Source: Prasinococcaceae sp. CCMP 1430
Taxonomy: Eukaryota; Prasinodermophyta; Palmophyllophyceae; Prasinococcales; Prasinococcaceae
Direction: 5' to 3'
Length of the DNA: 20,199 nucleotides
NCBI GenBank assembly: GCA_013416795.1
Contig: RQSC01001236.1
Span: 56,902 to 77,100 of the forward strand
The translations under genes and the position numbers were made by a program. Below are positions 3,086-6,764 of the stretch, one piece after another. How positions within the stretch are numbered: position 1 is the first letter of the stretch; the number at the start of each line of letters is the position of its first letter. The notes under the pieces are model-generated. The model ran no database searches, had not been told where the DNA came from, and saw nothing but the letters and a program-made list of their open reading frames with translations.

Positions 3086-4918
3086 CTAGGCGAGAAGAGC
3101 GCGCACGATCTCGCGCACGTTGAGCGACTTGAGGTCCGTGTACGTCTGCCCGCAGCCGATGAACATGATGGGCGCCCCCGACGTGTACACCATGGAGAGC
3201 GCGGAGCCCACCTTGTCGTCGACTGTCTCGTACTTGGTCAGAAGGATGCCGTCAATGACGCGCGTGCAGTTCGGATCCGGGTGCAGGTCCGCGAGGCGCG
3301 AGTTGAACTTTTGCAGCTGGTCGAGCGCGTCGTTGCCCGTCAGCGCCTCGCCCACGAACAGCGTGGTGTCCGGCTTGTTCATGACGATGAGCTTGGAGAG
3401 CGCCACCATGAGCGGCTCGTTGTCCTGCATGCGTCCCGCGGTGTCCACGAGCACCACGTCGTAGCCCTCGCGGCGCGCGTGCTTGACTGCTTCGCGCGCC
3501 ACGTTGGCAGGGTCTTTCTCGTATCCGCGCTCGAACAGCGGCACATCCAGGCGCGCCGCGTGCGTGCGCAACTGCTCGACCGCGCCCGAGCGAAACGTGT
3601 CGCACGCCGCGAGCAGCACACGCATGCCGTTTTGCGTGAGCCAATACGCCACCTTGGCGAGGTTGGTGCTCTTGCCCACGCCGTTCACGCCCACGAACAC
3701 CATGACGTAGGGCTCGCCGCTCGCCTTCTTCCCCGCGATGTCGCGCAAGATCTCGTTCGAGCGCTTGGGAGTGAGGATGCGCACCAGCGCGGCCTCCATC
3801 GCCTCACGCACCGCCGTTCGAACGCGCCCAAACGTCGGCAGTCGCCGCCCGACGAGGCTCTCCTCCACGCTCGCGCACAGCTCGCCGGCAATCTCCTCGG
3901 CGACGTTTTTGGTGAGCAAGCGCTCCTTGAGCGCGACGAGCGTGGGCGCCAGATCGGCTCGCTCGAGCGGCCGGCTCCCGCTCACTTTGGCAAAGACAGA
4001 TCCCACCCACGCACCGACGCCGGCGCCGGAGCCGGGAGAATCATCTTCGTCGTCGTTGTCGTCGTCGCTGTCGTCGTCCATCCGGCTCGCGCCGTGGGTG
4101 TGGGCGGCCCCGCCCTCGGCAGCGACCGCATCCGCCAGCGTGCCCTGCGAGTAGTCCAGCACCTCTGCCTCCTCGTCGCCTTTGCCCCCCTTCCCCTTGC
4201 CTTTGCCCTTGTAATATGCGGGCTTTGACGGCTTGCCAGACTTGGCCGGCGCGCGCACCGGTGGCTCTCGGCCCCCCTTCTTGCCACGGCGGTTGAGCTT
4301 GCTCATATCGAAGGCGCCGTCACCTGCCTGCATCGCGCCAGCGCCCGCCCCCGCCCCCGCGTCGCCTCCAGAGCCCGCACCAGCGCCCCCTTCGCCGCTG
4401 CGATCACGCTCAGCGCTGCTGCCCGCGCCTTCGGCCGCGCCGGCCTGCGCAGCCGTCGCGCCGCCGCCGGCGCCGCCATCGCCGCTGGGGGGTGCGGTGA
4501 GTTCCGAGGCATCCTCGAGGTCGGCGCGAATGGCGTCGAATTTTGCGTCGAACGCGTCTGCGTAGTCGAGCTTTCCCGGCTCGTGCGCGCGCCCGAACGC
4601 ATCCCTCACGCGCTCGAGCAGCGCGGGCACGTACGGCAGGGCGATCGAGCGCTCGTGTGTGGCGGCGAGCACGAGGCCGCGCGTATTGTCCAGCGCCCAC
4701 CGCACGCGGTACCCGCGTCCGTTCGGGGCGACGACGTCGTAGGCCTCATCGCTGCCGCCTCCCGACCCCCCACCCGCGCGCTCCTCCAGGAGTACGCGCG
4801 CGATGAGGGCGTTCACGACGGCGTCGCCACCGGCCGCCGCCGGACGCCCCGCCCCCTCGGCGGGCACGCGCCACAGCACCACGCCGCCGCGCGTGAACAC
4901 CACGAAGTCGTCCAGCAT
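3086..4918 (-). CDS. SRPRA: Signal recognition particle receptor subunit alpha (FtsY-like GTPase)
   Basis: A single exon of 610 residues. Residues 1-125 form the SRX longin domain (starts MLDDFVVFTRGGVVLWRVPA), which binds SRPR-beta on the ER membrane. Residues about 125-300 are a charged, Gly-rich linker with a KGKGKGKGGKGDEE patch and an acidic Asp run. The N and G domains follow: P-loop GVNGVGKST (about 408-416), DTFRSGAVEQLR (about 439), DTAGRMQ (about 491), the G4 region TKYE (561-564) and GQTYTDLKSL near the end. The protein docks SRP-ribosome complexes at the translocon and pairs its GTPase with SRP54. The length is close to animal SRPRA. The ATG at 4918 starts the SRX domain directly. 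Oddity: G4 reads TKYE where the family has TK(F/Y)D. Antisense frames here are GC-driven shadows. Confidence 0.96.
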   Translation of the reverse strand: MLDDFVVFTRGGVVLWRVPAEGAGRPAAAGGDAVVNALIARVLLEERAGGGSGGGSDEAYDVVAPNGRGYRVRWALDNTRGLVLAATHERSIALPYVPALLERVRDAFGRAHEPGKLDYADAFDAKFDAIRADLEDASELTAPPSGDGGAGGGATAAQAGAAEGAGSSAERDRSGEGGAGAGSGGDAGAGAGAGAMQAGDGAFDMSKLNRRGKKGGREPPVRAPAKSGKPSKPAYYKGKGKGKGGKGDEEAEVLDYSQGTLADAVAAEGGAAHTHGASRMDDDSDDDNDDEDDSPGSGAGVGAWVGSVFAKVSGSRPLERADLAPTLVALKERLLTKNVAEEIAGELCASVEESLVGRRLPTFGRVRTAVREAMEAALVRILTPKRSNEILRDIAGKKASGEPYVMVFVGVNGVGKSTNLAKVAYWLTQNGMRVLLAACDTFRSGAVEQLRTHAARLDVPLFERGYEKDPANVAREAVKHARREGYDVVLVDTAGRMQDNEPLMVALSKLIVMNKPDTTLFVGEALTGNDALDQLQKFNSRLADLHPDPNCTRVIDGILLTKYETVDDKVGSALSMVYTSGAPIMFIGCGQTYTDLKSLNVREIVRALLA

Positions 4919-5122
4919 GCCGCGCGGCGCGCCGGAGCGCTCCCTCTTCCCCCCCGCCTCCCCCTCTGGCGACGGGATCCACTCTCAATCGAGCGCCTCG
5001 TCGATCGTCCGCGCCTGCGCCAGCGCGAAGGGCGGGGTTGGATGCGGGCTCCCAAGGGGAGGAGGGCGGCTCTCCCCCGCCGCCGCCCGCCCCCCGGGGG
5101 CGCTCGCGCTGTGGCCGCGGCA

Positions 5123-5289
5123 GGGGCCGTGCCGTCGAGAGCGTGGCCCGCCCCCACGAGCAGCGCCGCGCATCGTACGTGCCCCAGCCGCACCGCCTCC
5201 GCCCAATTGGCGGAGGCGGTGCGGCTGGGGCACGTACGATGCGCGGCGCTGCTCGTGGGGGCGGGCCACGCTCTCGACGGCACGGCCCC
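5123..5289. repeat. Perfect 81-bp inverted repeat with a 5-nt loop
   Basis: Positions 5123-5203 are the exact reverse complement of 5209-5289, separated by CAATT at 5204-5208. I checked the arms base by base and found no mismatch; outside 5123 and 5289 pairing fails at once. Each arm contains the blocks CATCGTACGTGCCCCAGCCG and its complement. A perfect palindrome this long is unstable in cells and hard to sequence, so it is either a very recent inverted duplication or a fold-back or assembly artefact. Confidence 0.97.
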
Positions 5290-5352
5290 CGCGGGGGAGA
5301 CTGCACTCGACTGGGCGGCGTACGCTTCGAGCCGAGCCAGGGAGGCGCACGA
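5209..5352 (+). pseudogene. Ankyrin-repeat coding fragment, truncated at the palindrome
   Basis: From the palindrome centre the plus strand reads AEAVRLGHVRCAALLVGAGH, ALDGTAPAGETALDWAAYAS, SRAREAHDERC. This fits one ankyrin unit (xLGHxxxxALLVxAGA-like) followed by the start of the next (GETALDWAA). The left arm encodes the first 27 or so residues again on the minus strand (5203-5123). The domain is cut at the loop, with no start codon and no matching upstream repeat, so it is a fragment: a relic, a misassembled exon or a gene piece next to an unmarked join. Its frame does not match the downstream EF-hand gene. The ankyrin call rests on motif spacing over about 45 residues. Confidence 0.5.
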
Positions 5353-5544
5353 TGAGCGCTGCCGAGGGGCGGGCGACGCGCGGGGGGGCGGCGCCCCGTC
5401 GGGGTTCCCCCGCCGGTGGAGAGTAAAAGGGGGAGCCGGAGGGCGCGGCGCGCTCGTTCGCGCGCCACACGCGCGCAGCACAAGCAGAGGCCTGGGCTCG
5501 AGCGCGCTCTCGTCCCCAACCGCCCCGAGCGAGACGGGCACGCG

Positions 5545-6764
5545 ATGCGGCGCCCCGCGCCGGGCGCGGGTAGCCGCCGCGGCGGCATCAGCGCGGGCAC
5601 AAACGTGCAGCGGCCCGAGAATGGGGGCGGCGGCGGCAGCCGCCGCAGCAGCGGCCGGGGCAGAAGCGAGTCCAGGGCGGAACGCCGCTTAAAGATCCTC
5701 GCGGCGGACATCGCGTCGTGGATGCGCAAGCGGGGCAAGAGCCTGCGGCCAGAGCTCACGCCCGCCCAGCGCGGCGAGATAAAAGGTACGGCACCAGCCG
5801 ACACAACATCCCCCCCCTCGCACGTCCCATGCTGCCTCCGCGCGAAAGGCACACAGGCGCCCCCCCGCACCGCCGGCGGTGGTGGCTCCGCGCGCTTCGC
5901 GCTGACACGCCCCCACCCGCCGTCGCCATCGCTCGGAAGAGTGCTTTGCGCTGATGGACACCGACGGCTCAGGAACGGTCGACGTCGACGAGGTGCGCCC
6001 GAGCGCTGCTCGCCCTCGCGCGCGCCTCGCCCGGAAATCCACCCGCGCGGCTCCTCAAGCGCGCGCTCACGCCCACTAGCACCTGCGCCGCTCCCCTCCC
6101 ACCCGATCCGCCCTCCACGAAGGTACACGCTGCCATGAAGCTCCTCGGCATGAAGGCGCGCCGGCGCGATGTGGAGCGTATGGTGAACGCGTGGGACGCC
6201 GACGGCTCGGGCGAGATCGAGCTGCCCGAGTTCATCGAGATGATGACCAGCGAGATCCAAACGCAAATCGCCAACGAGTACGAACGACGCGAGGCGGGCG
6301 CCGCAGGGGGCGGCGCGGCGCCGCACTCCTTCCAGATGATCGCGCAGGGCCTGCGGCGCAAGAACCTTCTCGACAAGGTGATGACCGGGGACAAGGCCGC
6401 GCGCATGGAGCTACAGGGGCTGCTCGACTCGAAGAAGGCCTTCGCGCTGGCCGACGGCGGCTCGCGGTACGCGCGGCGGCGCTCGGTGTTCGCCGGGGGG
6501 GTCGTCTCGCATGCGTCGGTGTCGCGCTTCATCGCCGCACAGAGCGAGGTCGTCGAGAAGACGCTGGGCAGCGACGTCGGCGGGGGGGTGTCGTCCCGCC
6601 TGCTGAGTGCGGAGGAGCGCGAGGAACTGCGTGCTGTGAGCGTCTCGCGAGAAGACATGCGCGCGGCCAGGGGTGAGGCCGCCGCACGCCTGAGGCTCGC
6701 CGATACAGCCGCGCGCCGCGCGGAGAGCTCGCTCTTCACGCTGTGGCCGAAGCCACGTAGGTGA
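5545..6764 (+). CDS. EF-hand calcium-binding protein, centrin/calmodulin-like (three exons)
   Basis: Exons 5545-5785, 5940-5992 and 6123-6764 join to give 311 residues. Introns of 154 and 130 bp use GTACGG/AAG and GTGCGC/AAG borders, and both junctions restore the EF-hand consensus. A basic Gly/Arg/Ser-rich N-terminus (1-50) leads into LTPAQRGEIKECFALMDTDG. Calcium loop 1 is DTDGSGTVDVDE (87-98); loop 2 is DADGSGEIELPE (123-134). The 36-residue spacing is canonical and both loops keep all ligands. The linker VHAAMKLLGMKARRRDVERM resembles centrin and calmodulin. Unlike those four-hand proteins, it has one pair, then about 175 residues of helical and low-complexity tail without another loop. 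Binding partner and location are unknown. ATG 5545 is the first in-frame ATG. The stop lies 31 bp from the RRP42 stop. Confidence 0.85.

Follow-up and report, generated by a model that had tools for sequence, protein, structure and literature searches.

In yeast, double-strand breaks give rise to fold-back inversions; inverted microhomology primes these templated inverted duplications, which span 2 to ~150 bp (PMC11724301). Pol delta carries out synthesis on one side of the break, and end joining captures the other end (PMC11724301). Inverted repeats of 3–15 bp give rise to longer fold-back inversions, one of which has a spacer of 6 bp (PMC10622511). Local template switches likewise create perfect inverted repeats, which in apes reach 128 nt (PMC7954356), and long perfect inverted repeats with arms of up to 142 bp are found in the coding sequence of nematomorph mitochondria (PMC6649704). 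Palindromes can also originate outside the cell: palindromic reads primed by hairpins have been documented as a library artefact (PMC3946424), and artificial palindromes are abundant in amplified DNA (PMC6218980).

Here we analyse a perfect 81-bp palindrome in a 20,199-nucleotide stretch of DNA from the alga Prasinococcaceae sp. CCMP 1430 (hereafter the window). The window comes from a 149,779-bp contig (C37) of an assembly of 24.5 Mb in 145 contigs. We suggest, with a probability of about one half, that the palindrome is the junction of a single fold-back synthesis event in the genome of the alga, in which part of an ankyrin-repeat coding segment was copied in inverted orientation and joined to a different sequence.

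Yeast fold-back inversions (PMC11724301) are close to this proposal in that both would involve a short inverted duplication of sequence beside a break, with one end copied and the other joined without long homology, and 81 bp falls within the yeast range. However, most yeast events are shorter than 14 bp, and the mapped yeast case has a spacer of 41 nt as opposed to 5 nt here. Additionally, the left flank of our palindrome does not carry on the ankyrin frame, which calls for an extra deletion or translocation. Short-range template switching under the four-point model (PMC7954356) can also generate, in a single step, perfect inverted repeats that are tens of bases long, but as a rule the switch soon goes back to its original template close by, whereas the upstream sequence expected here is missing. 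Recognizing a template switch takes a four-point alignment to the ancestral sequence. The nematomorph palindromes (PMC6649704) share with it the long perfect inverted repeat in coding sequence; there, however, both arms encode conserved protein and many genes are affected, whereas here there is one case with one arm in context.

Palindrome geometry and uniqueness

The initial annotation described a perfect 81-bp palindrome around a CAATT loop, and this description is exact: the two arms are complementary at 81 of 81 positions (Table 1). Beyond the arm edges 10 of 15 positions still match (binomial P ~0.007, with extension bias uncorrected), after which similarity stops. The second-longest perfect stem across the window measures 14 bp (loops <60), and the number of perfect 81-bp stems expected by chance in 24.5 Mb of the base composition found here is ~2e-34 (the GC content of the window is 71.6%). 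In fold computations the palindrome as a single strand reaches −140.7 kcal/mol, compared with −55 kcal/mol for shuffled sequences (z = −25).

Table 1. Features of the palindrome locus and its surroundings (positions in the window)
Feature	Positions	Strand	Basis
Single-N join cutting the ClpB C-terminal domain	1172		Codon immediately after the N corresponds to ClpB_D2-small profile position 17
SRP receptor alpha subunit, left neighbour, head-to-head with the palindrome region	3086–4918	−	SRP54 GTPase E 4.8e-56; SRP-alpha_N E 9.1e-21
Left outer edge	5108–5122		10/15 matches to 5290–5304
Left arm, putative newly made copy of the ankyrin-coding segment	5123–5203	−	81/81 complementary to 5209–5289
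Loop CAATT, ankyrin frame ...Q-L(A)	5204–5208		Sequence and fold; ankyrin homology begins just within the right arm
Right arm, putative source, part of ankyrin repeat AEAVRLGHVRCAALLVGAGHALDGTAPA	5209–5289	+	Homology unbroken across the outer edge
Ankyrin-repeat homology, ~1.2 repeats, left end at the palindrome centre	5213–5329	+	Pfam and PDB matches
EF-hand protein gene, right neighbour	5545–6764	+	EF-hand matches in ORF 5955–6764

The absence of any difference over 81 bp places arm divergence below ~3.7% at 95%, which suggests that the duplication is very young. Extreme youth is unproven, since zero divergence gives an upper bound only and gene conversion could hold the arms identical.

The locus stands alone. 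DNA and protein searches of the readable genome returned the palindrome itself as the sole match, and no perfect stem of at least 18 bp with a loop of at most 300 nt was found in ~165 kb of readable sequence sampled outside the window, GT/CA microsatellites excepted. Thus, such palindromes, real or artificial, are not frequent here; about one-third of the bases in stretches sampled by position are N, and absences elsewhere are weak evidence. Two perfectly matching arms separated by a short centre could also be the terminal inverted repeats of a fold-back transposon or MITE, which is the least probable of the explanations we weighed. Host sequence coding for ankyrin makes up the arms and runs on outside the supposed element, inspection revealed no clear target-site duplication, and a locus with a single copy in the readable genome does not constitute a repeat family. 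A repeat-family or transposon identity was therefore rejected, as no dispersed copies accompany the locus in the readable genome.

Ankyrin homology and the polarity of the arms

The peptide read from position 5204 (QLAEAVRLGHVRCAALLVGAGHALDGTAPAGETALDWAAYAS...) has ankyrin homology over residues 4–42. Its Pfam scores (Ank_4, E 0.0035, or 0.0067 when a longer peptide tail is included; Ank, E 0.011; Ank_2, E 0.016) all lie below the Pfam cut-offs. In a phmmer search of the PDB, with E-values that add up several weak repeats, the best match was ZDHHC17, an ankyrin palmitoyltransferase (E 7.3e-6), followed by designed repeat binders, ankyrin-1/2 and Kidins220. The reversed control peptide had no ankyrin match in the PDB search, and the long antisense and off-frame ORFs of the window had zero Pfam matches. 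These matches to ankyrin-repeat structures, together with the clean control, bear out the ankyrin reading proposed initially. We regard the homology as likely, and not as strong, because a small profile of the genome's own ankyrins neither separated the fragment from shuffled sequence nor picked it from the window.

The two arms differ in their context. The right-arm frame continues past the outer edge at 5289, with ...GHALDGTAPA before the edge and GETALDWAAYAS after it. Read outwards, the left arm leaves the ankyrin frame and runs into AATARAPPGG...; the ORF that reads through this arm (4813–5688, minus strand) has no Pfam match, and the left flank (4919–5122) offers no ankyrin-like reading in any frame upon inspection. 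Because ankyrin homology crosses the right outer edge only, the right arm probably served as the source of an inverted copy, the left arm, and the ankyrin fragment ends at the loop. An ankyrin unit had originally been assigned to both arms, with the domain cut off at the loop on both sides. The arms do encode the same peptide, trivially, as they are identical, and the fragment does stop at the loop; the ankyrin context, however, belongs to the right arm only, and the left arm is a copy without context.

The initial annotation had also proposed a search of the genome for the ankyrin gene carrying the arm sequence. Searching the readable genome at the DNA and protein level for an intact ankyrin gene or for the upstream exon recovered no copy besides the locus itself. 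Across the genome 189 ankyrin-repeat matches were counted. At one locus (C89:124065–125420) ankyrin repeats and a DHHC domain lie ~0.8 kb apart; judged by its domains, this pair is likely an ankyrin palmitoyltransferase of the ZDHHC17/Akr1 type, the family nearest to the fragment in the PDB search. The fragment has no DNA match to this ankyrin/DHHC locus.

Genomic setting

The palindrome sits in an intergenic region of ~630 bp between divergent genes, as had been supposed, with the SRP receptor alpha gene on its left (minus strand; start ATG at 4918–4916) and the EF-hand gene on its right (plus strand). The EF-hand gene is predicted to begin with the ATG at 5545 and to contain a GT-AG intron from ~5787.

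A perfect and very stable stem between two divergent genes, in a genome with an Argonaute/Piwi-domain match, could be a useful hairpin, namely a young hairpin-RNA or proto-miRNA locus derived from an inverted coding duplication, or a cruciform that controls the divergent promoter. We consider this very unlikely. Neither an RNase III domain nor a second match to the arm that could serve as a target was found in DNA and protein searches of the readable genome, absences that are weak in so far as about one-third of the bases in the sampled stretches are N, and perfect identity is uninformative on selection. The hairpin-element option of the initial annotation thus gains no support: in the readable genome the sequence occurs once, belongs to no repeat family and has no other target. 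Less probable again is the narrower proposal that a very young inverted coding duplication in a divergent promoter is now an expressed hairpin-RNA locus, that is, a small-RNA gene being born. We propose no function for the palindrome, which is most likely an ordinary accident and not a working part; its main effect should be that of a fragile hairpin that hinders replication between two divergent genes.

The Piwi-domain (Argonaute) match lies at C31:119748–120602. Its occurrence without an RNase III domain in the readable genome may reflect loss of Dicer or masking.

Assembly quality and a possible origin in the library

The assembly is a gapped draft, with 13 single-N joins in a readable sample of 140 kb, or ~1 per 10 kb. 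Two single Ns fall in the window, at 1172 and 8570. A ClpB-type D2-small domain (1172–1421) starts right after the first of these, and its upstream exon is absent; thus, single Ns in this assembly represent real gaps, and truncation of a domain at an assembly join is a known event within the window. The cut of the ankyrin domain at the palindrome centre looks similar to the cut of ClpB at 1172. No hidden direct or inverted overlaps of at least 12 bp were found within 300 bp of the 13 single-N joins.

Several single Ns (1172, 8570 and, by translation, those at L024 and L025) adjoin C-rich runs or introns. Single-N sites beyond the window occur at L007, L011, L013, L014, L018, L024, L025, L027, L029 and L038.

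An origin in the library is a nearly equal rival to an origin in the cell, and the two places of origin are not separable from sequence alone. The initial annotation had likewise listed both a recent inverted duplication of an exon and a fold-back artefact. In the library, the palindrome would stem from hairpin-primed extension while the library was being prepared or the whole genome amplified, and a false contig join would then have linked it to the SRP receptor alpha side. The fold-back reads would lie at the end of a contig carrying the ankyrin exon, with the real upstream ankyrin exon in unassembled sequence. The density of single-N joins speaks for this explanation, as do the parallel with ClpB, in which both domains are truncated exactly at a discontinuity, and the left flank, which lacks the upstream ankyrin part while no other copy turned up in the readable genome. 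The zero divergence of the arms points the same way: palindromic read artefacts (PMC3946424, PMC6218980) are also perfect inverted copies of the same strand without divergence. However, these artefacts mirror one flank, whereas here similarity ends after 81 bp and two unrelated flanks follow. Because the outer flanks differ, the palindrome is not a plain fold-back read, and a second error, the false join, is needed. There is also no N at the palindrome junction, and no similar palindrome appeared in the ~165 kb examined elsewhere, where a systematic artefact might recur.

Proposed fold-back synthesis in the cell

For fold-back synthesis in the cell, which we prefer, the observations are the exact palindrome, the source/copy polarity of the arms, the unrelated flanks and the uniqueness of the locus in the readable genome. 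As in fold-back inversions, adjacent sequence is duplicated in inverted orientation around a short spacer (81/81, 5 nt), and the right arm remains in its native context while the left arm is joined to a different sequence.

The event would have begun with a broken or stalled end within an ankyrin-repeat coding segment, at the position of today's loop. The 3′ strand may then have turned back on itself by pairing a few complementary bases on either side of CAATT, for example GCC/GGC; these triplets at the loop are compatible with a priming microhomology, but they are located inside the arms. A polymerase would have copied 81 nt from the same strand, giving the left arm, and the new end would have been released and joined, presumably by end joining as the closing step, to another end, which lay towards the SRP receptor alpha promoter. 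The product would be a perfectly matched inverted duplication between unrelated outer flanks, in which the ankyrin segment ends at the loop, the upstream ankyrin part having been lost or relocated.

The following points count against an origin in the cell. Unless a further deletion or translocation took place, one would expect the upstream ankyrin part in the left flank, where it is absent. The draft is gapped, with single-N joins about every 10 kb, one of which truncates a domain in the same manner. Additionally, a hairpin of such stability is hard for short-read sequencing. Each explanation thus carries a cost: fold-back synthesis in the cell needs a deletion or translocation because the upstream ankyrin part is missing, and the library artefact needs its second error because of the unrelated flank.

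If real, the palindrome would be a clean algal example of fold-back copying of 81 nt followed by joining to an unrelated end, a class of mutation for which most studies concern yeast and human genomes. It would also mean that perfect palindromes can arise within nuclear coding sequence and shorten a domain. If instead it is an artefact, it usefully cautions that, in gapped drafts, a domain that stops at the centre of a palindrome needs a read check before any gene model is built.

Further observations on the assembly

Some contigs carry pairs of matches with identical scores, one pair for a light-harvesting protein (C82:667658–668086 and C84:119853–120281) and one for ankyrin repeats (C75:589274 and C76:249696), which suggests unmerged haplotypes or recent duplications. 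Light-harvesting proteins of the chlorophyll a/b type in the assembly indicate a plastid of the green lineage.
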